From an archaeon (GTDB lineage Archaea > Asgardarchaeota > Thorarchaeia > Thorarchaeales > Thorarchaeaceae): a stretch of DNA of 64,000 bases. A program made the translations under genes and the position numbers. The stretch lies in NCBI GenBank assembly GCA_024275415.1, contig JAJRZD010000059.1:1-64000 (forward strand), written 5' to 3'. Numbering within the stretch: the stretch's first letter is position 1; each line of letters opens with the position of its first letter. Under the pieces are notes generated by a model. It had not been told where the DNA came from and ran no database searches. It saw only the letters and a list, made by a program, of their open reading frames with translations. This document shows, one piece after another, positions 4,322 to 24,105 of the stretch.

Positions 4322-4360
4322 TCAATGGAAAAGTCATTTCCTAGCGTGTCCAGAAAAATG

Positions 4361-4387
4361 TAGAGTGGGGGAGGAACCCCCATTCTA
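4361..4387. terminator. hairpin between convergent genes
   Basis: A stem formed by TGGGGG (4366-4371) and CCCCCA (4377-4382) with an AGGAA loop; pairing extends outward through AGAG/TTCT with one G-U pair to about 11 bp. It lies between the convergent ends of the UPF0104 gene and the giant surface protein, so it could end transcription or stabilise 3' ends on both strands. Confidence 0.6.
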
Positions 4388-4397
4388 TCTGTACTAA

Positions 4398-7300
4398 TCA
4401 CTCCATCTTGATCCCAAGACTGTTAAGCAAAGCCTCAAGGTCAGCCTTGGACAGAGTCTTTGCTTCCTCAAGGATGACCTCGATCTCGGCAGGTGCCAGT
4501 CCCTTCGCGAGGAGCTTCTGCCTTATCTCCTCAACCTCTTCAGGACGGGACTCGAGTGCAGCTGTTTCAACTGGCTTCTCGGGCTCTCTTTCCCTTGCAA
4601 GCGTGTCAGCCCTGCGGGCTTCCTCCTGAGCAATGACTTCCCTGATAAAGCCGGGTCTCTCGCTTGCCTTCATCTTGGCAAGGTCAGCTCTGAACGCTTC
4701 GATCTCAACAGCACCCAGTCCTGTAATCTCAGCAAGACGATCAAGAAGCTCGTTCACTTCTGGGACATGAGCTTGAATGGTTTCACCCACAACGTCATCC
4801 GGTTCCTTCACAAGTCCTATGGGTTTGAGTTCGTCTTGGATTATGGAAAGGAGCGTCATCTGGCGAGTCGGGGCACGGGCGGGCCTTGGCACCTTTCCTT
4901 TCTTCAGCTCCTTAATCATCCGGTTCAGTGCGCGTATCTGAACAGGGATGCTCCAGACACGCACGTAGTAGTACATCAGCACGGCTCCAATGATGAGTAG
5001 CGAGCCGATACCATAAGTGGCATTCTGGACAAGCACCTGTTCTGGCGTAGGATTGGAATCAATCTGAAGGTCAATTGCCGCTGCTGCATAGTCGCCTCTC
5101 GAGAACTGTATGGTCAGGTCATAGATGCCACCCTGCTCCACGACAAAGTACAGCACATAAGTTCCACCGTATTCGTCTATAGTGCGAATGAAGGATGGAT
5201 AATAGATGACCGCATCTGGATTGTCTGCTGTCACAGTATATGTGATGGTTGCATCGGGAATCGTTCTACCGTGGTCAATATCGAGATATGATATCGTCAG
5301 TTCGATGGTCTGACCAGGTAGTGTTTGAATAAGAGAGGAATCGTGGCTGATAAGGACAAGATCCGTGTCTACCTGTCTCACAGTGACAATGATCTGATAT
5401 GGTGAGATTTGGTATAGAGGTTTGATGAACGAGAGGTCAATTGTATATTCACCTATGTCCAAATCTCCAGGAATCTCAAGGATGTAGCTACCATTCTCCG
5501 CTATATCAAGAACCACCTGCTCAAGCCCAACCCAGTTCGCAATACCTGACGCATCACTGACGAACTCAGATACGATAGTGTTGTTCAGGTTATAATAGAA
5601 TACCAACGAGTCGTTTACAGGGATGGATATATATCGAGGCCCTTGAACGACAACTGGGAATGCATTGAGGTCAAGTCGTACCTTAAGATATGCCGTATCG
5701 TAGTTCTGCAAGATGAAGCGTACCTCTACATCATACCTCTTCGGTGTAGTCACATTCAAGTTCACGGCAACCGAGTACGTGCCATTTCCATAATCAGTGA
5801 CTTCTCCTGATCCGCCATCCCAAGAAGCCCGAACATCTGCCCCTGAGAGGGGAACATCGTGAAGTGAGTCGTTCAGTGAGAAGACATATACTACTGTATC
5901 ACCAAAGTAGCCGGCCTTGGAGCTAAGGTCAACCTCTACTGTTGTTGGAATTGGTTGGATGTTCACAAGGAACCGCACAATCTTTGTTTCATAGTACTCC
6001 TTTGAAAATGTAATCTTGAGGTAGATTGATTGTGCTGGCAACGAGGAGGTGTCGATTGTTGCTACGTAAGAGCCATTAGGCAACTCAGTTAACGAACCTG
6101 TTATATTTGCGAGGGCATATGTGACATTTGCACCTCTAATCAGACCACCGCCGAGATTGTCAGTCAGCGTCAATAAAAGATCTAGGTCTTCACCGTAATA
6201 GCTAAAAATGCTCGTAGCCAAATTGGGAAGATTCAATGAAATGGGAATAGGGTCGACTATAACCACAACAACCAAGTCTAGGAAATCATAGTTATTGTGG
6301 AATGCAGACACCTGCAACTCGTATTGTCCTATAGCAAAGCCTACAGTGTCAATATTGCTGACATAATAACCGGGGGTTCCATTCGTGACCATGCTGTAAA
6401 TTGTATTATTCCACTCTGCGGTAATGACAGCGTCGGTTATCGGTTGGTTCCTGTTTGTATCGTTGAGATAGACCCAAATCTGTCGGGTCGTATTTGTAAT
6501 GATGTTTATGAACGTCTGCTCTGGGATCACGTAGCCGATAGCCTTGGAAATGATGAAGGTCATCGTTGTCTGCTTTGGTTGATAGAACTCCTTTGTGATA
6601 GTAATTTGCGGCTGAGACACTCCGAAGTCATTGTCGGTCGTGTCAACAACCGTAACATATGTCCAATTGAGTAGGTCGCTGAACACATAGATACTCCCAT
6701 TCCAATATAGTGTGGCATTCATCCCTGGTATGTAAGTCCCATACAACGGGTCTTTGACATCTATCTTGATTGTCAACTGGTCGCCCCAATCCGCATAGAC
6801 TGTTGTGCTGGCAAGGATGATCTCAGCCGATGCGTCCCCAGGCGTTACACTGACGGTTATGTTGGCAATCACATAGAAGGCCAGTTCTGCTTGGATAGTG
6901 AACACGTATTCCTGTGCTAGTAGTCCAGTTGTGTTTATTGTAATCCTATAAGCTCCAGAACCCAGGTCTTGGATTATTGCATCTGTCGAATATAGAGTTA
7001 CCCAGTCAGTGGTTATCGCAGCTCCTGAGATAGGAGAGCCATCCTGAGTGGTCGTAAAGGTCAGATTGACTAGGATAGGTTGCCCAACAGGTTGCGATGC
7101 TACGGAGGGAACCTCTGCGATAAGAATTGTCGGGATGAGGATAATCTTCGCTGGTATCTGGCTTGCCGAACGTGCACTGTAGAATGGAGACCCAGATATT
7201 GACACGCTGACATTGAAATATATGGTGCCGGTGTTACCGAACTGCGCTGTCGGGACTATGATTTCGTATAACCCCGAACCAAGGTCAGTGATGTAGTGAG

Positions 7301-10300
7301 TCGGGCTTGTCATATTCAAGAATGAAACGGTCACTATTGCCCCTTGGATTCCGCTGTCTGTCAGGAAATCAATGTACTCGAAGTTGATTGTGATGTTCTC
7401 ATAGTATGGAGTGTCCGCTACGAGCGGAAACAGTATCTGTGTGGGTCTCTCAGTAGTCGTGACTGATGTTGATATGCTCCGAGGTGCATAGTATGGTACT
7501 CCTGCACTTGCATCAATAGTCATCTGAATTGGATGACCTGTTACCAATGCACTTGGATTCAGGATTGTCGAGTTGAACGAGATAGTATAGATACCGCCCG
7601 ATTCTGTGAGTGTGTAATCTGTACTTACGATGACAGTCATCCCTGCGCCATGGGTTAATGTGATCTCGGCCTTGGTGATTGAGATGCTTATGCCAGTCAG
7701 GAAATCGGTATAACGGAACTTGAACACGACCAGCTCCAGGAAGGGGACTTCGCCAGGAGTTTGTGTGATGAGTATCTGGGTTGTTCTCTGGGTGACTCGC
7801 GAGTTCACGTTGGCACTGGCAAGGGCATAGAACGGAGAGCCGCTCCTTGAGATGTTGACCTGCAAGACGAACACACCCACGCTCCCAAGAGCGGTGCTAT
7901 CGATTTCGATGAGATACTCTCCAGTCCCAAGATCAGACACCCAATAGTTGGTGTTGATTAGCAGGGAAGATGAAGAGTTAGAACAGTAAACAACTACAGA
8001 GCCTCCAGATATTGGAGTGCTCGTCGAATCATCAAGATAGGTCACGATGAATGAAACGTTGTTCAGATATGGTGTAGGATCAGGGGTTTCATAGCCCAGC
8101 TGGGTTATCCGCTCAATGATAGTGAGTTCAAAGATTTCGATAGCATCCGAGGCAAAGTTGGATCCATCATAGATTATGGTCGCGTTGATGTAAAACAGCC
8201 CAGCGCTTGCAAAATAGGTGGTATTGATCTCTGCAAGATAATGTCCTCCACCTAGTGATGTGATGGTATACGCTGCTAATGAAAGGTTGAAACTAAGTAT
8301 GCCGGTCATGCCACTAGATGTCCCTGACACCAAATCTGTGTACACGAATTCGATGGTCACATTTTGACCCCATTGCGGAGCTGCAAATGAGAGATGTGTG
8401 AGCTGGGTAGACCGATACGTGACTGTCACCGAGAAGTCTTGAAAAGCCTCTTCATAGAACGGTTCACCAATCCATGTGATGTTAAGGGTCAAACTGCTCG
8501 TGCCAACGCCTAACGCAGAGGTGTCAATCCTCATGGTGAATACCATTGTCACACTGTCATACAACAGAGTAAATGGCACACCACCACCGACGATGCTGAT
8601 GTACAGATTGCTTGAGTTAGAAATCTTCTCCGACGTAAGGGAGTTTACATAGCTGAATGAGAAATCAGCAAGTTCGCCATAAGGTGTAGATCCAATTGGG
8701 GTGTAATCCACATAGGTTGGAATCCCAAGAACCACAAGTGTAACGGTGATGGTCTGATTTTCATAAAGGGGATTGATTGCCTTTCTCCAAAGGAAATCGA
8801 TTTGGAACTTGAAAGTTCTTGCAGCACCAAATAACGAGGCGTTCAGCTCAAAACTGTAGGTGCCACTTGTGTCTATCTCCGCTATCACAAAGTCTGCTTG
8901 AGTCACACTGTGTCCTGTAGTAATCGGAATAACAGAAATCAGCACATTGTTTGTGGAGTTCGATATCCTTGTGGCATTCACCACATCATAATAGACGAGG
9001 GTGAACGTGAAGTTGTCGAGATAGTTTGTTGCAGTCGGAGCTATCTCCAGATAGAGATCGGTTTCCGTTCCCAAAAGCCTGACCCTAGTATCCAGCACCT
9101 GTGAGTAGTAAGTCTGTCCACCCGTCCAAGAAGCTGTGATTGTCAGATTCTTCCATCCTATAGACGACCATTGTGAGCTCGATATAGTGATATTATAGTG
9201 TCCATCGCCCAGAGCTGAAACAGACGAGATGAAGGCTAGAGATGTTACATCAGGGGATGTGATATCAAAATCGACAAAGCCAGACCCATTCGTGATTCCT
9301 TGAAGCAAGTCTGTGTCTTGATAGAACACAAGAACCACAATGTCCTGCCCAATGGGGGTCTGCTCGATGGGAGAGTCGAGGACGAACTGGGTATTGTGTC
9401 TGCGAATCTCGACTCCTATTGAGAATGTGTGATTCTGGTAGTCCTTTCGAGTCACATTGAAGACCACATTGTAGAGGTTGCTTGGTGTGGTCAATGGGTC
9501 ATCGATCTCTGTGAATATCGTGACGTTGTACACGCCCGGGCTTGTTTCGACGACAGTGTAGTTTTGCTCACCCGTTGTGTGGAACGATGTCCAGTTGCTT
9601 GTGATTGCTGATGCCATCCCTGTGATGGGTTGGTCATTATCAGTGTCATACCATGTAATGGTAAACGAAGCAGACTCGCCAACTGGGATTGATAGTTGAT
9701 TTGCTGAATAGCTGACTGTGTTATAGACCTCACGGATTTCTACAAACATCAGCATACTTCGGGGTTCTACAAATGATGCACTTGCTGAGATCAAAACGGG
9801 ATAACTACCGAAAACTATCCCAGAAGTAGTAAGAACAATTTGGTACTGACCTGAACCAATCTCTGTAACCGTGTAGGAATTTGTCCAATTCGTCTGTATC
9901 GAGGCACCAAGAATTCCTGTCCCGTTGACATTCTTGAATTCCACAATGAACGTCTGGTCATTGCCGATAGGACCCTGAATCCCAGGATAATCAGGAGATG
10001 TCAGTTCAGCATTATAATTGACATTCACTGTCAGAACCGCATTCGCAGTATCAAAATTATTTGCAGTCCATGTTAGGTCGATTGTGTATTGACCCTTACC
10101 AGGGAGTAGCGAGGTATCAAGAACTTTGGTATACTGTCCATTACCACTATCATCGAAGGTATCGCTTCCCAAGACCCAGTTCATCGAGAGTGTACCTCCG
10201 GGAACGACCACCTGACTGTCTGTATCGTTGGCAGTGATGATGATCAGCAAGAGGTCACCATAAGTCACGTTCGTCTTCCAAGTACCTACTGCATCATCCG

Positions 10301-12161
10301 GATAGTTGATTGTCAATGCAGATGTGTGCGTGACCGAAAAGGGTCTTTTGAAAAATCCTGTCGACCTCCAGTCAGTATTTGTCCCTACATCATTGCTGAA
10401 TGCTTGAACCATCCAAGACCCAGCAGAAGCATTGGCTCCATCAAAAGTCAGCCATGGAGTAGTCGCATATCCTGAACCATCAGTTGTTGCGTTCACACTA
10501 TACCATTTTTGGCCTGTAGGGGTGTAAACAGTGAAATTGACCACAGAATTGGCGTAAGCAGCGCCTAGATTGGCACGGATCTGTGTGGAATTCCCAGCCC
10601 TAAGGTCAATTGTCCTGCTCCATACAAGTGCATTCGGATCATAAAGCTCGATGTCACTAATCATGTTTGGTGACTTGCTCAATATCCGCCAGTAACCGTA
10701 ACGACCTGCCTCAGTGGCAACATCATACGTAGACACATTTAGGAACCCATCACCTGGGTTTCCTCCATTCCATCCGGTGGTCAGATTCGTTGATGGGGCC
10801 AAAGGACGAGCTACAAAGTAGACATCCCTGTTGGCCGGGATGGTCATGTTGAAGAAGTATCGATTCGCGTAGCCTTGAGGAATATCTGCATAGAAATATG
10901 TGGAATAAGACGCATCAGTGCCGTTTTGTATCGAAAACCGCTCACCGAATGCTGTAGGATTAATCTCCTTCACAGTTCCAAAATCCAACCGCCGAGCGAA
11001 CATATTGATGTTAACATCAAATTCGACTATGATGGTTCGATTCGGCACCGGATTGATAGGAGTTGGACTCCAAGTGAAATTCATTCTCACAGGATCAGTA
11101 ATCCACGGAGTAGTTGGAGTTTCAACGATGAATCCAGAACCATAGCCCGTGTTATCTGTAACAGGATTCCCGTTCATCTCGAGGTTGAGGCTAGTGGGTG
11201 TGGCACGAGTCTTCAGATACAACTCGATGTTATCAAATTTCGCAGCTGGAAGAATGTTAGGCGCATAGCCATAGGTTCCTTTGCACCAGAGACCCACTTC
11301 AAGTGTGACACTTTGATCAGTAGGCAGGTTGAATGTGGATGTGGGAATAGAAACCAAACCTGAGTCGTACCATGTTTCCTCAGCGCCAATTTCTGTAAAC
11401 GACTTCTCCCAAGTCCAAGTGCTTTCGACTGTTAGATAGATCGAGAATGCTCCGGTCATCCCATAGTGTGTGTCATCTCTCGTATCGGCCCAATAGTCAG
11501 TTCTAAACCCGGCCCAAACAACTTGTCCGCGGGGAGCTGTCATTGTCTGTTGCGCCCAAGCTCGATCACCTCCAGAGTAGTAAAATGGTGAGCTTGCACT
11601 ATTAGAGTCAATGAAGAAATCAAAGCTACCATCTCCCGGGCCATGTCCGCTGGAGTTGTAGAGAGAAGTTTCTGATGAATACGACCCTCCATCTGTCGTT
11701 CCTCGGGTCCAACCAGTATCAGACCCTGTCAGGTCGGGGTTCTGTACCCAAGTCCGGTTCTCGGTAATCTCGGTCAAATCAGCACGGACTTGGTAGGCTT
11801 CCCAGTTGTTGCCAGTGGGGATATCAACTGTGACATTTGTTGTCACATTTGTCGGAAGGTAGGTCATCTGCATTGTGTTTTGGAGGGTCGTTGAGTTGCC
11901 GAATTCAGATGCGATGAGTTCCGTCGAGTCACCTTGCCACTCGACCCATCCCTGTTCAGTCAAGACAAACTTGTGAAGTGTTTCACCGGGAGCCACCTCA
12001 ATTGTTTCTCCATTGCCAATATCGACTAAAGATGAACCACCAGCACTATCATCTGAAACTCCCACTGTTCCAAGGTCAGGACCAAGAGCAGGACCCGCGA
12101 AGGTAGATAGTAGCATCAATAATCCTACGAGGATAACTGGAATCAGGCTTGTCTTCTTCAT
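4398..12161 (-). CDS. giant membrane-anchored surface protein with tandem Ig-like repeats (paralogue 1)
   Basis: A 2,587-residue single-pass surface protein. It has an N-terminal signal peptide (MKKTSLIPVILVGLLMLL, then a small-residue cleavage zone), a roughly 400-residue N-terminal region with aromatic and beta-rich character, and then a long series of about 90-130-residue beta-sandwich-like repeats. These recur as YxDxxxxxxIxGAxV...W...L.xGxYxIxIxTS and contain many N-x-S/T sequons. A hydrophobic helix (LLIIGAVLMYYY, about residue 2390) is followed by a cytoplasmic tail of about 188 residues rich in Glu/Arg helices. The start overlaps the stop of the upstream paralogue as ATGA, so the two are co-translated. 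The architecture suggests an adhesin or cell-envelope scaffold linked to the cytoplasm; the repeats resemble bacterial/archaeal Ig-like or macroglobulin-type folds. No enzymatic motif was seen. Function is not known. Confidence 0.8.
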   Translation of the reverse strand: MKKTSLIPVILVGLLMLLSTFAGPALGPDLGTVGVSDDSAGGSSLVDIGNGETIEVAPGETLHKFVLTEQGWVEWQGDSTELIASEFGNSTTLQNTMQMTYLPTNVTTNVTVDIPTGNNWEAYQVRADLTEITENRTWVQNPDLTGSDTGWTRGTTDGGSYSSETSLYNSSGHGPGDGSFDFFIDSNSASSPFYYSGGDRAWAQQTMTAPRGQVVWAGFRTDYWADTRDDTHYGMTGAFSIYLTVESTWTWEKSFTEIGAEETWYDSGLVSIPTSTFNLPTDQSVTLEVGLWCKGTYGYAPNILPAAKFDNIELYLKTRATPTSLNLEMNGNPVTDNTGYGSGFIVETPTTPWITDPVRMNFTWSPTPINPVPNRTIIVEFDVNINMFARRLDFGTVKEINPTAFGERFSIQNGTDASYSTYFYADIPQGYANRYFFNMTIPANRDVYFVARPLAPSTNLTTGWNGGNPGDGFLNVSTYDVATEAGRYGYWRILSKSPNMISDIELYDPNALVWSRTIDLRAGNSTQIRANLGAAYANSVVNFTVYTPTGQKWYSVNATTDGSGYATTPWLTFDGANASAGSWMVQAFSNDVGTNTDWRSTGFFKRPFSVTHTSALTINYPDDAVGTWKTNVTYGDLLLIIITANDTDSQVVVPGGTLSMNWVLGSDTFDDSGNGQYTKVLDTSLLPGKGQYTIDLTWTANNFDTANAVLTVNVNYNAELTSPDYPGIQGPIGNDQTFIVEFKNVNGTGILGASIQTNWTNSYTVTEIGSGQYQIVLTTSGIVFGSYPVLISASASFVEPRSMLMFVEIREVYNTVSYSANQLSIPVGESASFTITWYDTDNDQPITGMASAITSNWTSFHTTGEQNYTVVETSPGVYNVTIFTEIDDPLTTPSNLYNVVFNVTRKDYQNHTFSIGVEIRRHNTQFVLDSPIEQTPIGQDIVVLVFYQDTDLLQGITNGSGFVDFDITSPDVTSLAFISSVSALGDGHYNITISSSQWSSIGWKNLTITASWTGGQTYYSQVLDTRVRLLGTETDLYLEIAPTATNYLDNFTFTLVYYDVVNATRISNSTNNVLISVIPITTGHSVTQADFVIAEIDTSGTYSFELNASLFGAARTFKFQIDFLWRKAINPLYENQTITVTLVVLGIPTYVDYTPIGSTPYGELADFSFSYVNSLTSEKISNSSNLYISIVGGGVPFTLLYDSVTMVFTMRIDTSALGVGTSSLTLNITWIGEPFYEEAFQDFSVTVTYRSTQLTHLSFAAPQWGQNVTIEFVYTDLVSGTSSGMTGILSFNLSLAAYTITSLGGGHYLAEINTTYFASAGLFYINATIIYDGSNFASDAIEIFELTIIERITQLGYETPDPTPYLNNVSFIVTYLDDSTSTPISGGSVVVYCSNSSSSLLINTNYWVSDLGTGEYLIEIDSTALGSVGVFVLQVNISRSGSPFYALASANVNSRVTQRTTQILITQTPGEVPFLELVVFKFRYTDFLTGISISITKAEITLTHGAGMTVIVSTDYTLTESGGIYTISFNSTILNPSALVTGHPIQMTIDASAGVPYYAPRSISTSVTTTERPTQILFPLVADTPYYENITINFEYIDFLTDSGIQGAIVTVSFLNMTSPTHYITDLGSGLYEIIVPTAQFGNTGTIYFNVSVSISGSPFYSARSASQIPAKIILIPTILIAEVPSVASQPVGQPILVNLTFTTTQDGSPISGAAITTDWVTLYSTDAIIQDLGSGAYRITINTTGLLAQEYVFTIQAELAFYVIANITVSVTPGDASAEIILASTTVYADWGDQLTIKIDVKDPLYGTYIPGMNATLYWNGSIYVFSDLLNWTYVTVVDTTDNDFGVSQPQITITKEFYQPKQTTMTFIISKAIGYVIPEQTFINIITNTTRQIWVYLNDTNRNQPITDAVITAEWNNTIYSMVTNGTPGYYVSNIDTVGFAIGQYELQVSAFHNNYDFLDLVVVVIVDPIPISLNLPNLATSIFSYYGEDLDLLLTLTDNLGGGLIRGANVTYALANITGSLTELPNGSYVATIDTSSLPAQSIYLKITFSKEYYETKIVRFLVNIQPIPTTVEVDLSSKAGYFGDTVVYVFSLNDSLHDVPLSGADVRASWDGGSGEVTDYGNGTYSVAVNLNVTTPKRYDVEVRFILQNYDTAYLKVRLDLNAFPVVVQGPRYISIPVNDSLVFYYNLNNTIVSEFVSDASGIANWVGLEQVVLDIAENGSYILEIPGDLDIGEYTIDLSFIKPLYQISPYQIIVTVRQVDTDLVLISHDSSLIQTLPGQTIELTISYLDIDHGRTIPDATITYTVTADNPDAVIYYPSFIRTIDEYGGTYVLYFVVEQGGIYDLTIQFSRGDYAAAAIDLQIDSNPTPEQVLVQNATYGIGSLLIIGAVLMYYYVRVWSIPVQIRALNRMIKELKKGKVPRPARAPTRQMTLLSIIQDELKPIGLVKEPDDVVGETIQAHVPEVNELLDRLAEITGLGAVEIEAFRADLAKMKASERPGFIREVIAQEEARRADTLAREREPEKPVETAALESRPEEVEEIRQKLLAKGLAPAEIEVILEEAKTLSKADLEALLNSLGIKME

Positions 12162-15100
12162 TCTTTCATTCCTCCGAGTTGGTCGAGAAGTGCTTGTATC
12201 TCGGCCTTTGACAGGTGTCGAGCTTGTTCCATCATCAATTCAGCTTCGCTTTCCTCGATTCCCATCTTCAGTAGTTGCGCTTTCAGGTCTGCAAGCTCTT
12301 CTTCGCTCAGTCGGGCTTCTGCCTCTTCGGCTGCCCTAGCTGGAGCCTCGGCAGCATCCGCAATCTCCTTGGCACGTCGGGCTCGTTCCTGCCTAATGAC
12401 CTCATTGAGGAAACCACCACGTTCGCTTGGCTTCATCTTATCCAAGTCGCGTCGAAGCACAGCTGTGTCAGCCTCGGTCAACCCAACAAGTGTCGCAAGC
12501 TCTTCTAGTAGCCTCTCAGTATCAAGAGTTTCTACTTCCACGGAATACTCTGAGATGTCTTCGGGTGGTTTTACGATACCTATCGGTTCCAGTTCCTCAT
12601 TGATCCATTCCAGCATCATCTTTCTCCGTGAACGCACAGGCTTGGGAGATGGTATGCGACCCTTGGAGAGGGTCGAAATCATTGAACGGATCCACCTCAA
12701 CATCTTTGGAATTGAGAGTACCCTGAACCAGAGAGCGGCAAAGGCGAATAGTGCAAGAATGCCGATGGATCCCCATCTGAAAGCATTCTGAGCTGCAATC
12801 TGCTCTTCGGTAGCCACGGCATGTATGATGACCTTTGCAACTGAGTCCTCATGGTTGCTCGAAGACAGGGTAACGACGATTTCATAACGTCCAATATCAT
12901 TCAACCTGAAATAGAAGAAGTATGTGCCATTCGTGCCCTGATGCTCTTCATCTACTAACCTCTCAGCGTTCGTTCCTTCTGTACTATTGGTCGCATCATA
13001 GATTGGGATGTTATGGTCAAGATCCCAATAAGTCAAGTTTAGAATCACGAGTCCACCTGCAAATGCTGAAGGAGAGGGACTTTCGAAGAAAACAGTCGTA
13101 CGAATCGGTCGTATGGTAAGAGTCACTTCCATGACACGACGTTCATAATTCTCCTTGGAAAGAACAATTCTCAAAGAGTAATTGCCGATGGGTAAGGTCG
13201 TTTCTCCAGTAATATCAGGGCCAAAGAAGTACGTGCCGTTCCCTGCGTCTGATAGGGCTATAGTTCCAAACTCCCAGAATACGGTATTTATCGCATCTGT
13301 GACCCACTGATCATTGAGAGAGTCATAATAGCTGAATGACTGCGAGTAGTCATCACCCCACGGAATGACTGGATGTTCATTTCCTATGATCTCTGTAGGA
13401 ATTGGATTTACCAACAGCCGCACAATCACATTGGAGAACTTGTATCCATCTTTCTCGAAGCTTACTGTGATCTGATATGGTACTGAGCTCGAAACAAGTA
13501 GAGATGTATCAATTGTCATCGAGTATGTTCCGTTGTCATAGTCAGTCAGATTACCACCAAACGCTGAGAAGAGGAAGGTAGCATCTGCACCAGGTACTCC
13601 TTCATCAAAGCCAACGTCCCAGAAGTTGAACCTAAATGTGGCGTTCTGTCCGTAATACACATCAATCTGAGTATCAGTCAGGATGATGATTTCTGTGGGG
13701 GCATCGTCAATCTCGATGGTGAACTGGATGGATGAAGGAGCGTATCCTTCACGGGAGCTGGTGATTGTCAGAATCCATGTTTTTATTTCCAGACCGAGTG
13801 TGGAGATATTTGCCGAATAGTAGCCGTTGCCAATCTCAGTCAGATTGCCGATGATGTCGCCAAGACTGTAGGTTAACGTGGCACCTGTGATGGGCTGAGA
13901 AAGGTCTGTGTTGTTGAGGTAGACTGTTACCGTGAAGTTGTTATTTGCTACAACCTCAATATATGTCACAACGTTTGCTGCCACCATCTCGGTTTCAATC
14001 ACATTGACTTCCAGTGTGACTTGCGTATTGATATCACGGTAGTTTGTAGAACTAGCTTGGATGAGTATTTTATGACTGCCAACGATGACATCATTGATTG
14101 TGAACTGACCGACATAGCGATTCTCGGTTGATGACCAAATCAAAGAACCTGAACCACCAATCCATGAGAAGGTCACCACTCCGTTCGGGATATCAGTCCC
14201 GTTTGATTGGATCTCGTAATCCACATAGACTGCGACTGTATCACCATTGACCGTGGAGAACGGGGTCAGGTCAGCTGCAATCTTCGATGCAATCTTCTCA
14301 ATCCGTAATTGACTATCGAACTGCCGCACTTCATGGTTTACTTTCTCGAACTGGATTGTTAGTGAATAGTCCCCAGCATCGTAAATCTTGGAATTGAAGG
14401 TAGTCTGGTAGATCCCGTTTGCGACGTATGTGAACACGTAGGTATCACTCAAGATAGTTACATTTGTGACACCCCCTGCAATTGGGTTACCATTGAGTGC
14501 GTTGGTGATGTTCAACTGAATCGTGATTAAATCACCCCACAAAGGAGTTTCAGGTACTATGCTTACCTCAATGTTTACAGGGATAGCAGCCAGAAGAATC
14601 TCCACATCAATTGATTTGTTCACATGGATAAACTTCGATGCGTTTATCATGAACGGGTATTTCTGAGCATCGAGGCCTGACGTGTTTATGAGCAACTGAT
14701 AGATACCATTACCAAGGGGAGTGATTGTCATTATGGTGCTATAGGTCGTATTCCAGTCAGAAGTCACATTCGCACCATCGATTCCGATTCCAGTGTCGGC
14801 CTCTGTGAATGTCACATTCACCTCGACTATCTCGCCGAGGTAGTTGGTCGAGCCGCCACTTGTCTGAAGCGTGAGGACAGTTGCGACCGGGGTGAGAATG
14901 ACCGAATATGAGATGGCGGTCTTGTTTTGGTAGTATGGCGAACCAAACCATGTGATGTTCGCCCTGAAGAAGTAACGACCCATCTTCACAAATCCGGACG
15001 AGTTTACACGGATCGTGTAAGTCCCATCATTGTTATCGAACCACCAAAATTGGATGCTCGTTTCGTTCAAACATTCTACAGTGATCGATGCACCAACAAT

Positions 15101-18100
15101 ATCGGAACCTGATAGATAGTCGGAATACGTGATGATTGCGGTCATGTTATAGCCATATGATGCAGGAGGAGTGGAAAGAATCCCGCTCTGTGTTAGACGA
15201 CTTGTAATCGATGCCTGCGTCGAAGTAGTAGCATTCGCGTAGTAGGGAGACACATCACCCCAGATGAAGTCCAGCTGAATCAGAAGCGAATCCACAAGAA
15301 CCGATGTAATCAGCTGTGAATCAATCGATATCGAATAGGTCGTACCATCGTAAGATAGAGAGTAGGAGGTATCGGGCAGAGTTGTCCCTGACCCATAGCT
15401 CACGGTCAAGTGACTTTTAGTCAATGCTATGCTGGAACCAGATAGCCCATCAGTTGCCGTGAACTCGAAGGTGACATTCTCCAAGAAAGGTGTGTTAAGG
15501 GGAGACTTGGTCACAACCAGCCTTGCTTCTCGTCGTGATACCTCAATTGCAATATCACGAACGCGTTCAACATAATATGGTGCCCCGGTCCAATTCACAG
15601 TGATTGTGACTAGATATGAACCAAATGTTCCCAGAGCTTGGGTCGAAATCCGGATAACATATTCTCCTGTACCTAGGTCATCAACCCAGTAGTTAGTGTT
15701 CAGTTCGAGGGGTGTCGAGGCATTCGAGCATTCAGCAAAGACGTTGGCAGATACAATGCCAGTCCCGTTGCTGTCATCAATGTAGTTGACAGAGATATTT
15801 GCCAGTGTCAGGTACGGAGCCAAATCGGGCAGCTCGCTTGTGAGCTGGGTTCGCCGCTGAACGACAGAAAGGTAGAACGAATCTGTTGCGTCATTGCAGT
15901 ACCGGATTCCTCCGTACGCTATTGAAACATTGATATGATAATAGCCTAGGACTGCAAAAGCAAAAGTGCTCAGCTCTAGCGAGTATGTGCCATCGCCATT
16001 GTCAGTAACCCAGTAGAACCCACTTAGTGACGCGTCTAACGTAAGTGTACCACCATTCATCCCAGTTGTTGTATAATCGTCGAGGTCGCGATAGGAGAAA
16101 AGAATCGTGACATTGTTCCCATACTGCACAGGAGCATAGGCTCCGTGTGTTAACTCAGTATATCGATATCGCGTTGTGATTGAGATAGATATCCCTGTGC
16201 GGTTCTGATAATAGGGTACTCCACTCCACTCGATAGATACCGTGAACGAATTCTCTCCGGGAACCCAAACAGAGGTGTCTACCTCTATGAAGAATATCCC
16301 AGTTAAATCACCATCATAGTAAATCGTGAAGCCGTAGCCAGGGACTGTGATTGTGAGGTTGGGCGCATTCAGTATGACATTACCGGTCAACACATCTTTG
16401 TACGTCAGTGACAAGTTAACCAGTTCATCATAGGGAGTGAGAGGCAATGGATTCCATTCTACCGTGGTAAGCCGATAGGTGGAATATACAGTCAGCTGGA
16501 GGGATTGGTTAGCATAATACGGAAGGACACCTTTTGTCCAGTTCATCCACACACGGAGGTCACAGCCAATGAGTCCACTCAGATAGGACGTATTGAATTC
16601 AATCCGGTATTCTCCAGGGCTGTTGATGTAGTCGACCTCGGTGATGACCATATTCTGCTGAGTCAAAGCCTGCCCAGCAGTCAGTACCTCAACATAGATT
16701 CTTACGTTCCCCAGATATGCACCAGTGCCATTAACAATCCCTGTGTCGTTTCCAAGATCATAATAGATGATTGTGAAAGTCACATTCTCACCGTAAGGAG
16801 TCATAACAGGACTCTCGCCGATGAAAATGTCAGTTGGAGCCTCGATGATTCTCGCGGTCACATCAAGCGTTTCATTGGTGTACTTGACGGTGGGCCCCGT
16901 CCAATTAGCATAGATATGTAACACTTGAGACCCTATGCTTCCCCATTGTGATGCATCAATATAGATGATGTATTCCCCAGCCTCGGTGCCATTCTGAACA
17001 GTAAAGACAAGCCCAGGCAGAGTGTCACTCACAACATCGATCCGCACGTTATATCCGACAATACTCCCATTCTCAATACCTGTGTCCGCGTCTGTATCGA
17101 AGTAACGTACAGAGATCGAGATATCACCTGTATACGGCGTGGGATCTACGGGGTTAACAAGATAGAACGATGTCAGATGAGTTCGCAGTTCAACTGTCAC
17201 TGTGAAGGTATGATTTTGCACGCCATATTGCTCGACATTGAAAACCACAGTATATACTCCAAGAGTATCAAGGTCAGAGGAGTAGATGTCTACTGTATAG
17301 ACGCCGGGTGTAGCAGATTCTGTCACAGTGTAGTTCATATCACCAGATTTGTGGATAGCAGACCAGTTGCTCGATATCGCGCTTTCAGCACCTGTGATAG
17401 GGGTGTTATGGTCTGTATCAGTATACGTAATGGTGAATGAGGTAGTGTAGCCTACAGGTAATGAGAGTACGCTCGTTGAAGGGATTGCAGAGGTGAAGAG
17501 CTCACGGACTTGCACCGATAGCAAGATGGTGCGTGATTCAAAGAAATCTTTCTCGGCGGTTATTGCTACCACATAGGTTCCAAGGGGAACGGTATTCGTT
17601 TGAAGGCTGATTAGGTATTTCCCTGGCGTCACGCCATCAGGTGTGACTGTATAGGTGTCCAACGTCCAGTTGATACTAATTGTAGCAAGGTCAATCCCCG
17701 TGAGTGTTTGATCCTTGAACTCCACTGTGAGTTCAGCATCGTACCCCTGTGGCACGTCGACGCCGGGTGCCTCAGCAGAAAAGAGGTCAGTGGTGTATAT
17801 AGCATTGATCGTAAAGGTCGCCACTATTGGGTCATAATAGCTCTTTGACCAAGAGAGGCTGACATCATATTGTCCATTTGATGGGAGAGTTGTCGTATCT
17901 AGTGTGACGCTATACTCACCCGTTCCCAAGTCACTCATCGTCCCTGAGCCTCCTGCCCAGTTATAATTCAGAGTGCCTCCACTTAGTAAGTCACCATTGT
18001 CTGAATCATTCACTCGAACCTGAAGAAGCACAAGATCCCCATAAGTCACGTTCGTTGTCCAAGAAACAACTGCATCCACAGGGTATTTCACATTCATCGA

Positions 18101-19957
18101 AGTGGAATGCTCGATATCGAATGTCCTAGTGAAGAAGCCTACGTTATGAACCTCGGCCTGTGATATAGCATCAGTGCTGAATGCCTGTACCTCCCAAAGT
18201 CCCACAGAGGCATTTGCTGCGTCCAGATTGACGAAGGGAGTGATGGCATAACCACTACCATCAACGGTTCCTTGAAGTGTGACCCACACAGAAGTATTCG
18301 GAGAGTAGACTGTGAATGTAACGACATCATTGGTGTAGGTTGGTGAGAGCGTTGCTCGGAATCTGGTGTCCTCATTGGCTCGGAATGTATGAGTCCTAGT
18401 CCATTGCGCCAGTGTGCTATCCCACACCTCAACATTTGTAATCATATTAGGCGAAGAACCCTTCAGCAGCCAGAAACCATTCTGGTTTGTTTGGGTTATC
18501 TGAAACACAGAGATATTGACTAGACCGTCCCCCGGATTCCCATAACTCCATCCTGATGTGAGATTGACAGTACGAGCGTAGGGTTGAGCAACGAAGTCAA
18601 TATCCCTATTAGATGGTAATGACACATTGAAGTAATACTTTGAAGAATAGCCACCGGGAACGGCAGCATAATGGTTGGTTTCCCAACGCACATCGGTACC
18701 ATTCTGAACTACATAGTTGTCGCCCAGAGTAAATAGCTCGGTGTTATTGATGGTGAGAACATTATACCGTCGAGCCCAGACTGTTACGCTCACATCAAGG
18801 GCGATGTTTATGTCGAGATTAGGGTCAGGCGGGTTAGGTATGGGGGTCCAAGTGAAATTAGCGAATGCCGCACCTCCAGTGAATATATTTGAGGTATCGG
18901 TGGCCGTCCCAAGTCCAAAGATTGGAGTTGATCCGGAGAAAACATCATTGACAGAAACCCCATTCATCTGCAGGTTGATATTGGATGGCGTTGCCTTCGC
19001 AGTGATATATACAACAAGGTTGTCGACACGGGCCTGAGGTTCTGTGTCGGGCCTCCACCACTCAAAGGCAGTGGTACGCAGTCCAACCCATAAGGAAATA
19101 TTCGGTAATGTCAGCGTGCTGACATCAACTGTAACATATCCAGATGAAAACCACGTTGCCGAGGCAGCCATGGAGTCAAATTCCATACTCCAGAGATAGG
19201 TCCCACCATTATCGGGGTCACCAACTGACACGAAAATCTCACAGAACCCTGTCAGTGAACTCCAAGTGATGTCGGCCCAATAGTCAAGGGAGATGCCAAT
19301 CTGAGTCACATCGCCTCTATCAATCGTAAGGTTTTGGACGGCGTATGCCTTATCACCAATGTCATACCAATAACCATAGAGCCCTCCTCCTGCGTCATAG
19401 TAATAACCATCCAGTTGAAATTGCGCGGCGCCACCTGGATTTCCTCCGGTTGAAATCCACTGAGAAGTGAACGGAGGGTTGCTTATGTTGTAGATTGATG
19501 GTTCATCATGAGTATACCAATTCCAGTCAGTATCAGCGTCAAACCCTGAGTTTGCGACCCATGTTCGATTCTCGGTAATGCTTGTGACATTAGTGAAGAC
19601 CTTATAGCCCTCCCATCCTGTACCGAGTGGCACTTGCAGGCTTGCTCCTGATGTTGTTTGTGTGCCAGAATCATAGTAGAGTTGGACATTGGAGAACGAG
19701 TCGGTTCGGTTACCATACTCTGATGCTGATAGAGAATCGCTTGTCCCAGTCATCTGCGTCGGTACATCGGAAAGTCGATATTCATAGACAGTTTCATCAG
19801 ATCCAATCTCTATGAGATCCCCAGAGTCAGTTTCATAATAGTTGGATCCATCTTCATTTGGTATCATCGCTCCTTGCTGTAATGGGAAGAGAAGTATACC
19901 GGTCAGCAATGGGAGAATGACTCCAAAAAATAGGATAATCTTCTTTCTGTGACGCAT
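12158..19957 (-). CDS. giant membrane-anchored surface protein with tandem Ig-like repeats (paralogue 2)
   Basis: A 2,599-residue paralogue of the gene immediately downstream, with the same architecture: signal segment (KKIILFFGVILPLLTGILLF), N-terminal beta-rich region containing the shared motif ITENRTWV, long Ig-like repeat array with many N-glycosylation sequons, membrane helix (SIGILALFAFAALWFRVL, about residue 2400) and a tail of about 189 residues. The tails of the two proteins align residue by residue at SIP...KG..P.P, PIG.VK.P.D, KMK.SERGGF.NEVI.QE.ARRA and LSKAE...LL..LG. The stop codon overlaps the next ATG by 4 nt. It is the promoter-proximal gene of the pair, with a 175-bp intergenic region toward the divergent cupin gene. 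Tandem duplication with divergence of the repeat array but conservation of the tail implies a conserved cytoplasmic partner (inference). Confidence 0.8.
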   Translation of the reverse strand: MRHRKKIILFFGVILPLLTGILLFPLQQGAMIPNEDGSNYYETDSGDLIEIGSDETVYEYRLSDVPTQMTGTSDSLSASEYGNRTDSFSNVQLYYDSGTQTTSGASLQVPLGTGWEGYKVFTNVTSITENRTWVANSGFDADTDWNWYTHDEPSIYNISNPPFTSQWISTGGNPGGAAQFQLDGYYYDAGGGLYGYWYDIGDKAYAVQNLTIDRGDVTQIGISLDYWADITWSSLTGFCEIFVSVGDPDNGGTYLWSMEFDSMAASATWFSSGYVTVDVSTLTLPNISLWVGLRTTAFEWWRPDTEPQARVDNLVVYITAKATPSNINLQMNGVSVNDVFSGSTPIFGLGTATDTSNIFTGGAAFANFTWTPIPNPPDPNLDINIALDVSVTVWARRYNVLTINNTELFTLGDNYVVQNGTDVRWETNHYAAVPGGYSSKYYFNVSLPSNRDIDFVAQPYARTVNLTSGWSYGNPGDGLVNISVFQITQTNQNGFWLLKGSSPNMITNVEVWDSTLAQWTRTHTFRANEDTRFRATLSPTYTNDVVTFTVYSPNTSVWVTLQGTVDGSGYAITPFVNLDAANASVGLWEVQAFSTDAISQAEVHNVGFFTRTFDIEHSTSMNVKYPVDAVVSWTTNVTYGDLVLLQVRVNDSDNGDLLSGGTLNYNWAGGSGTMSDLGTGEYSVTLDTTTLPSNGQYDVSLSWSKSYYDPIVATFTINAIYTTDLFSAEAPGVDVPQGYDAELTVEFKDQTLTGIDLATISINWTLDTYTVTPDGVTPGKYLISLQTNTVPLGTYVVAITAEKDFFESRTILLSVQVRELFTSAIPSTSVLSLPVGYTTSFTITYTDTDHNTPITGAESAISSNWSAIHKSGDMNYTVTESATPGVYTVDIYSSDLDTLGVYTVVFNVEQYGVQNHTFTVTVELRTHLTSFYLVNPVDPTPYTGDISISVRYFDTDADTGIENGSIVGYNVRIDVVSDTLPGLVFTVQNGTEAGEYIIYIDASQWGSIGSQVLHIYANWTGPTVKYTNETLDVTARIIEAPTDIFIGESPVMTPYGENVTFTIIYYDLGNDTGIVNGTGAYLGNVRIYVEVLTAGQALTQQNMVITEVDYINSPGEYRIEFNTSYLSGLIGCDLRVWMNWTKGVLPYYANQSLQLTVYSTYRLTTVEWNPLPLTPYDELVNLSLTYKDVLTGNVILNAPNLTITVPGYGFTIYYDGDLTGIFFIEVDTSVWVPGENSFTVSIEWSGVPYYQNRTGISISITTRYRYTELTHGAYAPVQYGNNVTILFSYRDLDDYTTTGMNGGTLTLDASLSGFYWVTDNGDGTYSLELSTFAFAVLGYYHINVSIAYGGIRYCNDATDSFYLSVVQRRTQLTSELPDLAPYLTLANISVNYIDDSNGTGIVSANVFAECSNASTPLELNTNYWVDDLGTGEYVIRISTQALGTFGSYLVTITVNWTGAPYYVERVRDIAIEVSRREARLVVTKSPLNTPFLENVTFEFTATDGLSGSSIALTKSHLTVSYGSGTTLPDTSYSLSYDGTTYSISIDSQLITSVLVDSLLIQLDFIWGDVSPYYANATTSTQASITSRLTQSGILSTPPASYGYNMTAIITYSDYLSGSDIVGASITVECLNETSIQFWWFDNNDGTYTIRVNSSGFVKMGRYFFRANITWFGSPYYQNKTAISYSVILTPVATVLTLQTSGGSTNYLGEIVEVNVTFTEADTGIGIDGANVTSDWNTTYSTIMTITPLGNGIYQLLINTSGLDAQKYPFMINASKFIHVNKSIDVEILLAAIPVNIEVSIVPETPLWGDLITIQLNITNALNGNPIAGGVTNVTILSDTYVFTYVANGIYQTTFNSKIYDAGDYSLTIQFEKVNHEVRQFDSQLRIEKIASKIAADLTPFSTVNGDTVAVYVDYEIQSNGTDIPNGVVTFSWIGGSGSLIWSSTENRYVGQFTINDVIVGSHKILIQASSTNYRDINTQVTLEVNVIETEMVAANVVTYIEVVANNNFTVTVYLNNTDLSQPITGATLTYSLGDIIGNLTEIGNGYYSANISTLGLEIKTWILTITSSREGYAPSSIQFTIEIDDAPTEIIILTDTQIDVYYGQNATFRFNFWDVGFDEGVPGADATFLFSAFGGNLTDYDNGTYSMTIDTSLLVSSSVPYQITVSFEKDGYKFSNVIVRLLVNPIPTEIIGNEHPVIPWGDDYSQSFSYYDSLNDQWVTDAINTVFWEFGTIALSDAGNGTYFFGPDITGETTLPIGNYSLRIVLSKENYERRVMEVTLTIRPIRTTVFFESPSPSAFAGGLVILNLTYWDLDHNIPIYDATNSTEGTNAERLVDEEHQGTNGTYFFYFRLNDIGRYEIVVTLSSSNHEDSVAKVIIHAVATEEQIAAQNAFRWGSIGILALFAFAALWFRVLSIPKMLRWIRSMISTLSKGRIPSPKPVRSRRKMMLEWINEELEPIGIVKPPEDISEYSVEVETLDTERLLEELATLVGLTEADTAVLRRDLDKMKPSERGGFLNEVIRQERARRAKEIADAAEAPARAAEEAEARLSEEELADLKAQLLKMGIEESEAELMMEQARHLSKAEIQALLDQLGGMKE

Positions 19958-22914: not shown

Positions 22915-24105
22915 TTAGGGAGGTGAAAAATCTGGGTACGTTTTGATATGACCAAAGAACTCCTGAATAGGTCCTGCAAGGAAATACTCGAAGTTGAGTA
23001 GGACTCCAAGGAAATGAGCAATTAGCAACCCGATAATCATAAAGCGATATTTCCTCATATCTTCACTATCTTTCAGATAGAACATTGGAATTACCACCCA
23101 GTAATAATACCACATAAGAACCCATGAAACAAATATCAACACCAAAGGCAACAGGAAAATGATGACCATCCTGACATCCCGTTTCCGGAGTTTAGGACGA
23201 GGAAATGGAATTCCGTGCCACGACCCTGTATCAAGGATACCATAGAGCAACACGACTACCAGTACTAAAGGTGCTAGGACTGCAACTGGGTTATTCCATA
23301 TCAGCCCGATATAGAATGGATTCTGAATGGTTGCAGCGTAGTTCGGATCACTTGTGAAATGAGAAACCAATGCGCCATACCCTACGCCTGCCAACATGAG
23401 AGGGACGAATAGGATACCGGCAACAGCTCCGAAAGCGAGAATAGTAATTGGATCCACCAGAAACATCACTGGCAATATCATAATGGGATATGCCTTTGTG
23501 TGAAATGCCAACCCTAAGAATGCGTTGCTCAACCACCTTCGCTCCTGCCTGAAAAGCGATAGAGATACTAGCCAGAAGAAATCCGCCAGTGGATCTGCCT
23601 TCCCGAATCCTACTGACATGAAGAACCCAAAGAAGTAATAGAACCCCCCCATGAACCAGAACCATTTTCGATCCCAGTAGTTCTGACCGATATACAGGAA
23701 CAAAATGATATTGAGGTGGAATATCAGGGTGAACAAGACATTCGCGATGTAGTGGGGGCCATACCATCCGGGCTCTAGAGCTGCGAGTCCAGCATAGACA
23801 AGAAGTGTTATGATAGGATATTCATATGAAACGTTCAGGACATCTGTGAGCAGATGGTCTGATGGGACTGCATACGTTTCATTCAAGTCCTTGTCAGTGC
23901 GATTGAATACCTCCAGACCCTCAATAAGAAACACTTGTCCATAGAGCATGTTTCGGTTCCGATCCCGCTCGATTATAATCGAGTCGATTACGGGAATCAG
24001 GATAAATGAAAGCGTTAGTGAAAGCAAAAGTAGATTCCGATATTTCCGGATGACCTTTCGGAGAGGAATGGTAGCTCCCATTTTCACATCCCATATTCCC
24101 ATCAC
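22915..24105 (-). CDS. GT-C-type membrane glycosyltransferase-like protein
   Basis: A 396-residue polytopic membrane protein with about nine to ten hydrophobic helices and an early luminal loop containing acidic residues and aromatic patches. The segment YFFGFFMSVGFGKADPLADFF and the HTKAYPI motif resemble GT-C folds such as GT87/mannosyltransferase-like proteins, which use polyprenyl-phosphate sugars. No clear DXD pair identifies a subfamily. Starts at 24105, 24102 and 24081 are all possible. It is divergent from the acyl-CoA synthetase gene. Given the glycosylation-prone surface proteins nearby, a role in sugar transfer outside the membrane is reasonable, but this is inference. Confidence 0.6.
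   Translation of the reverse strand: MMGIWDVKMGATIPLRKVIRKYRNLLLLSLTLSFILIPVIDSIIIERDRNRNMLYGQVFLIEGLEVFNRTDKDLNETYAVPSDHLLTDVLNVSYEYPIITLLVYAGLAALEPGWYGPHYIANVLFTLIFHLNIILFLYIGQNYWDRKWFWFMGGFYYFFGFFMSVGFGKADPLADFFWLVSLSLFRQERRWLSNAFLGLAFHTKAYPIMILPVMFLVDPITILAFGAVAGILFVPLMLAGVGYGALVSHFTSDPNYAATIQNPFYIGLIWNNPVAVLAPLVLVVVLLYGILDTGSWHGIPFPRPKLRKRDVRMVIIFLLPLVLIFVSWVLMWYYYWVVIPMFYLKDSEDMRKYRFMIIGLLIAHFLGVLLNFEYFLAGPIQEFFGHIKTYPDFSPP

Follow-up and report, generated by a model that had tools for sequence, protein, structure and literature searches.

In the 64,000-nt stretch of a Thorarchaeial contig analysed here (the window), two overlapping genes, A and B, encode paralogous single-pass surface proteins of matched length, whose distal halves, judged from phylogenetic trees, have a common history separate from that of the rest of the locus. 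We put the chances at about even that the two proteins pair as a heteromer on the cell surface, in a device for adhesion or recognition whose two chains have matched distal specificity. The surface architecture proposed by a first-pass annotation of this DNA, and the pairing of the two genes across the class, were borne out by hydropathy, a repeat HMM and a survey of gene junctions.

The annotation had described two consecutive giant open reading frames overlapping by ATGA and had called them translationally coupled. Its coordinates were correct; the present analysis adds that the pair lies on the minus strand and is transcribed in the order A to B (Table 1). The coupling is likewise corroborated by relatives: A is followed by B in 17/17 Thorarchaeial genomes in which the junction could be recovered, with an overlap of 4 nt in 14 and of 1 nt in three of them, and GGAGG or a similar site lies within the last codons of A at most of these junctions. 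B itself was matched in 44 of the 47 genomes of the class. A Guaymas Thorarchaeota contig (L002) appears to cross another A-B junction, carrying the C-terminal part of A and the start of B. The conserved genes downstream (TyrRS, flippase-like, PHP, UbiA and DUF362) were taken as synteny, outside the A/B system. The tyrosyl-tRNA synthetase gene that lies 3' of B in most relatives is missing here (window 4322-4397), and the flippase-like gene comes next. Also near the pair, a gene at 22915-24105 weakly matches GT87-like glycosyltransferases (E 8e-4); together with downstream LPG_synthase_TM and UbiA genes it possibly points to glycan assembly.

Table 1. Features of the A/B locus, in window positions
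Feature	Position	Strand	Remarks
Gene A, first of the pair	12158..19957	-	2599 aa ORF; kept in Thorarchaeia
A signal peptide / N-terminal hydrophobic segment	19868..19957	-	hydropathy
A head, residues 33-617, with jelly-roll-like segment	18107..19861	-	fold inferred; without library match
A residues 158-160, propeller insertion site of orthologues	19478..19486	-	propeller absent in this genome
A 17 Ig-like domains	12800..18106	-	repeat HMM; AlphaFold pLDDT 96, Ig fold
A membrane helix	12704..12775	-	hydropathy
A cytoplasmic tail, 181 aa	12161..12703	-	most conserved part
GGAGG ribosome-binding site, within A 3' end	12171..12175	-	9 nt upstream of B start
ATGA overlap	12158..12161	-	B start and A stop
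Gene B, second of the pair	4398..12161	-	2587 aa ORF; kept in Thorarchaeia
B signal peptide / N-terminal hydrophobic segment	12072..12161	-	hydropathy
B head	10326..12065	-	homologous to A head
B 17 Ig-like domains	5034..10325	-	repeat HMM; colinear with those of A
B membrane helix	4956..5027	-	hydropathy
B cytoplasmic tail, 185 aa	4401..4955	-	hydropathy

The anatomy first read from the letters held up in both proteins. A signal peptide, one C-terminal membrane helix and a cytoplasmic tail of ~180 residues were recovered by hydropathy, and the proposed Ig-like repeat array resolved into 17 units each in A and B. The N-terminal region is also present in both (~580 residues), the term beta-rich describing the appearance of its sequence only. 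The reported richness in N-glycosylation sequons amounts to about twofold the shuffled expectation (67 in the A ectodomain against 32.5 +/- 5.0, and 65 in that of B against 29.2 +/- 4.8). Prediction of single repeats, which the annotation had suggested, gave an Ig fold: AlphaFold, supplied with an alignment of the window's own 34 repeats, modelled one repeat as a beta-sandwich of Ig topology (pLDDT 96), which matches Ig domains best, titin M3 among them (TM 0.53-0.67); a palladin Ig domain and the S-layer protein SbsC are further matches. The head, modelled from a two-row alignment, reached a pLDDT of 39, and the jelly-roll segment placed within it is proposed from sequence. When the whole proteins, their heads and their tails were compared with Pfam and NCBIfam, no family scored above its curated cut-off, Ig, adhesin and S-layer families included, and no relative of A came up in a sequence search of the PDB; weak PDB matches of the head and tail profiles were judged to be chance. 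Mean pairwise identity is 0.61 in the tail and 0.52 in the head, which makes the tail the better conserved of the two.

A and B of the window are paralogues over their full length, with 35% identity in an end-to-end alignment. Repeat k of A is 38% identical to repeat k of B and 26% identical to the other repeats of B, which argues for duplication of a whole gene; the two arrays, which the annotation allowed might prove unrelated, are related position by position. Class-wide, mean identity is 52% within A, 51% within B and 33% between them, and the two form separate, fully supported clades, a tree by which the A/B split is older than the sampled class. A and B from one genome are no more alike (33%) than A and B from different genomes, and on this ground recent gene conversion was rejected. 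The number of Ig-like domains is exactly 17, with conserved spacing, in 35 of 36 proteins, the remaining one scoring 16 in an array with an unchanged end point; short-looking pairs in two genomes (G034 and G006) proved to be assembly gaps (runs of N). Several further giant proteins per Thorarchaeial genome (2000-5900 aa; e.g. G000:C1:60000-71068, locus L114) combine Ig-like repeats with a cytoplasmic tail of the family seen in A and B.

The heads are modular. In 8 of 18 A proteins an NHL-type propeller of ~290 aa is inserted at one head site (PF01436, E 6e-25 in one orthologue); none was seen in any B protein, the lengths of which leave no space for one. The A protein of genome G018 is closest over residues ~50-600, propeller included, to that of G005, a member of a different genus, and from about residue 750 on to its own genus; no corresponding switch of affinity was seen in its B. 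By these comparisons the head was exchanged in A alone.

It is improbable, in our estimate, that A and B instead have a structural role, as the two building blocks of a surface coat or of an S-layer-like lattice, with the constant length setting its thickness and the distal variation reflecting escape from viruses or grazers. Conserved cytoplasmic tails, found here on both chains, are unusual among S-layer proteins, and the modular insertion of a propeller suits display more than packing. The twofold sequon excess, the constant protein length, the presence of the pair in nearly all Thorarchaeial genomes and the known occurrence of Ig domains in S-layers (SbsC being a fold match of the repeat) would all fit a coat, as would the composition of archaeal S-layers, given in one source as one or two proteins (PMC5744192). 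In a cultured lokiarchaeon, however, cryo-tomography showed complex surface proteins, for which a role in cell-cell contacts was proposed, and no highly ordered S-layer (PMC9834061).

The main support for a matched pair comes from trees built separately for A and B from distal (residues 330-1250) and proximal (residues 1570-2590) segments, with eight concatenated neighbouring genes as the reference. Genus labels, including g8, were set beforehand, and a type II group was named only after the first tree had been seen. In the distal A tree the three g8 species (G016, G021, G025) group with G037 of genus g11 (support 100/100), and the two of them with a full-length B (G016 and G021) do so in the distal B tree (100/100); monophyly of g8 is rejected in both (p-AU 1.5e-5 in the A tree and much smaller in the B tree). 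In contrast, g8 holds together in proximal A (100/100), proximal B (100/100) and the neighbour genes (97/99), where the grouping with G037 is rejected, and the tails of A and B also follow the genus tree. Identity switches within domains 7-9 of A and domains 6-9 of B; on the DNA, the exchanged A and B blocks are separated by the proximal half of A. Since the distal trees conflict with the proximal halves, the tails and the neighbouring genes, the distal halves of the two proteins have a deviating history in common, which lends new support to a joint function. The pattern probably reflects one ancestral event. The window genome is sister to G037 in the neighbour-gene tree, but in its distal halves it is closer to the other type. 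A chimeric assembly was ruled out as the cause of the mosaic, which diverged genomes have alike within single ORFs. The A-B distances give a correlation of r 0.98, compared with 0.27-0.48 for neighbour genes; when the type-split genomes are removed, the excess of A_i-B_i over A_i-B_j shrinks to 0.84 vs 0.77 (domain-matched).

The source of this pattern could also be hitchhiking, in which the whole locus was transferred and the proximal halves then recombined with resident alleles, with no functional match between A and B, an account compatible with the other readings of what the proteins do. A single ancestral event could indeed explain all g8 genomes of type II. We nevertheless think it unlikely, as A and B would each need a crossover of their own at roughly the same domain number, and the 3' half of A keeps the exchanged blocks apart. 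Less likely still, A and B might each have a binding target of their own, among environmental polymers or the cells of syntrophic partners, and be paired for dosage only: heads of the jelly-roll-like or NHL-propeller kind are modules that typically serve binding, and the G018 exchange touched A alone, but the coincident distal histories and the equal, constant lengths run against it. Chance as the origin of the two reading frames is excluded by ~50% amino acid identity across the class, the same repeat count and overlaps of 4 or 1 nt at every recovered junction.

Upstream of A, on the same strand and at a distance of 122-469 nt, 21 loci in 20 Thorarchaeial genomes encode a secreted, C-terminally anchored protein of ~725 aa with the motif HExxHxxGxxH. 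The motif is present in 14/14 of these proteins, and in three copies not adjacent to A; a putative Met-turn reads exactly S.MGY, 24 residues downstream, in 5 of the 14, with other letters in the rest. No Pfam match was found, and the product is predicted to be a metzincin-type metalloprotease. In the window genome the gene is not beside A but on contig C25, and it is also away from A in G013 and G037. In genus g8, a surface protein of ~1165-1218 aa with a LamG-like head is encoded near the pair (L052:885-4382); its cytoplasmic part, roadblock/longin-like by eye, has no Pfam match.

On a wider scale, the head profile has matches in 114 of 228 Asgard genomes and the tail profile in 94. The annotation had also considered that homologues might turn out to be single genes of well-known function; those found in other Asgard families are uncharacterised. 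In genus g51 of family f20, which is probably Lokiarchaeia, tandem pairs of ~1240 aa proteins are joined by a 4 nt overlap or a 2 nt gap and carry 5+5 domains (9 of 10 proteins, the tenth scoring an extra match in its head), and a pair in family f19 has 4+4. In the head tree the f20 partners cluster together, as do the Thorarchaeial ones, and a single origin of both kinds of pair, with A joined to the first f20 gene, is rejected (p-AU 7e-6). By this tree, tandem pairs of equal domain number arose independently in other Asgard families, ancient concerted evolution being what may alternatively have produced the topology. In about 13 genomes a gene with a predicted gelsolin-like domain (profile matches to 7c2f, E 2e-4, and 7whg, E 0.0066) lies 3' of the f20 pair or of the homologue of its second gene, 94-328 nt past the match. 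A Pfam gelsolin match was not found for this protein, and no gelsolin-domain gene was seen at the Thorarchaeial A/B locus; the resemblance to the Asgard gelsolins of those PDB entries concerns the neighbourhood in another family. Around the f20 pair we also observed a conserved 148 aa protein 3' of the gelsolin-domain gene (L088:15092-15538, with counterparts in L086, L087 and L089), longin-like by eye and without a family or PDB match, and upstream three related single-pass surface proteins in tandem (~520-550 aa; L088:2-5008). A short juxtamembrane motif, V..S(V/I)PK..R....M...L..G.IP.P, recurs in the tails of single-pass proteins of several Asgard families and could be a sorting or anchoring signal.

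Weighing these data, the recognition pair is favoured by the overlapping junctions with their embedded GGAGG, the separate clades, the constant 17 domains, the shared distal history with its A-B correlation, the independent equal-number pairs and the gelsolin and protease neighbours. The exchange of the G018 head counts in its favour, and its occurrence in A alone against it. Also against it, the co-inheritance signal comes mostly from one type split, the protease gene is not adjacent here, head and tail have no library name, and no gelsolin link was seen at the Thorarchaeial locus. If A and B do form such a pair, coupled translation would supply them in fixed proportion, and after export they would sit next to each other in the membrane, each held by one helix. 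Ig-like domains are spaced by about 4 nm, and equal stalks of 17 of them would hold the heads about 70 nm off the membrane. The distal part (the head and about domains 1-8) would bear the matched specificity, changing in both chains together, while the conserved tails would report or anchor the contact within the cell; in most Thorarchaeia, the complex may be trimmed or shed by the metzincin-type protease that is encoded next to A and anchored in the membrane. The fixed stoichiometry, the physical pairing, adhesion or recognition itself, the intracellular coupling and the shedding are what we infer from the observed features. More specifically, though doubtfully, the locus might serve archaeal allorecognition of self, kin or partner, through coupled receptors ~70 nm long with matched, exchangeable distal types, the Asgard relatives of which are genetically linked to a gelsolin protein that would regulate actin.

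The closest working analogue, with no homology claimed, is TgrB1/TgrC1 of Dictyostelium. These two linked genes each encode an adhesion glycoprotein that crosses the membrane once and carries Ig-like (IPT/TIG) domains; the proteins vary mostly at their N-terminal ends and must match in allele (PMC5288501, PMC4404348). A and B resemble them in being linked, in encoding surface proteins with one membrane helix and Ig-like domains, and in co-inherited distal variability, which here is between species and comes mainly from one exchange event. They differ in that the Tgr genes have a common 523 bp promoter region and encode proteins under ~1000 aa, while the variation of A and B is that seen between species, with one genome per species compared. 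The bacterial giant adhesins SiiE, Bap and MpAFP likewise extend a binding tip on long arrays of ~100-residue Ig-like repeats, but are single genes; the arrays of Bap and MpAFP are described as highly polymorphic or near-identical (PMC4647330, PMC4083281), whereas A and B are paired and have diverged, sequon-rich repeats numbering exactly 17 and a C-terminal membrane anchor. Archaeal S-layer proteins share glycosylation, Ig-like domains, surface anchoring and, sometimes, two components; A and B differ in their conserved cytoplasmic tails, size (~2600 aa) and modular heads. No description of the A/B family was found in the open-access literature searched.

Overall, the A/B family offers concrete and widespread candidates for Asgard surface proteins of cell-cell contact. 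Its matched distal halves lead to a specific, testable prediction on how partners are recognised. In another Asgard family, the neighbouring gene with a gelsolin-like domain is a genetic clue that could connect surface contact with actin. If the proposed pairing is true, paired surface recognition would be present in the archaeal group closest to eukaryotes; were the locus indeed one of allorecognition, the gelsolin link would be analogous to the joining of surface recognition to the cytoskeleton in eukaryotes.
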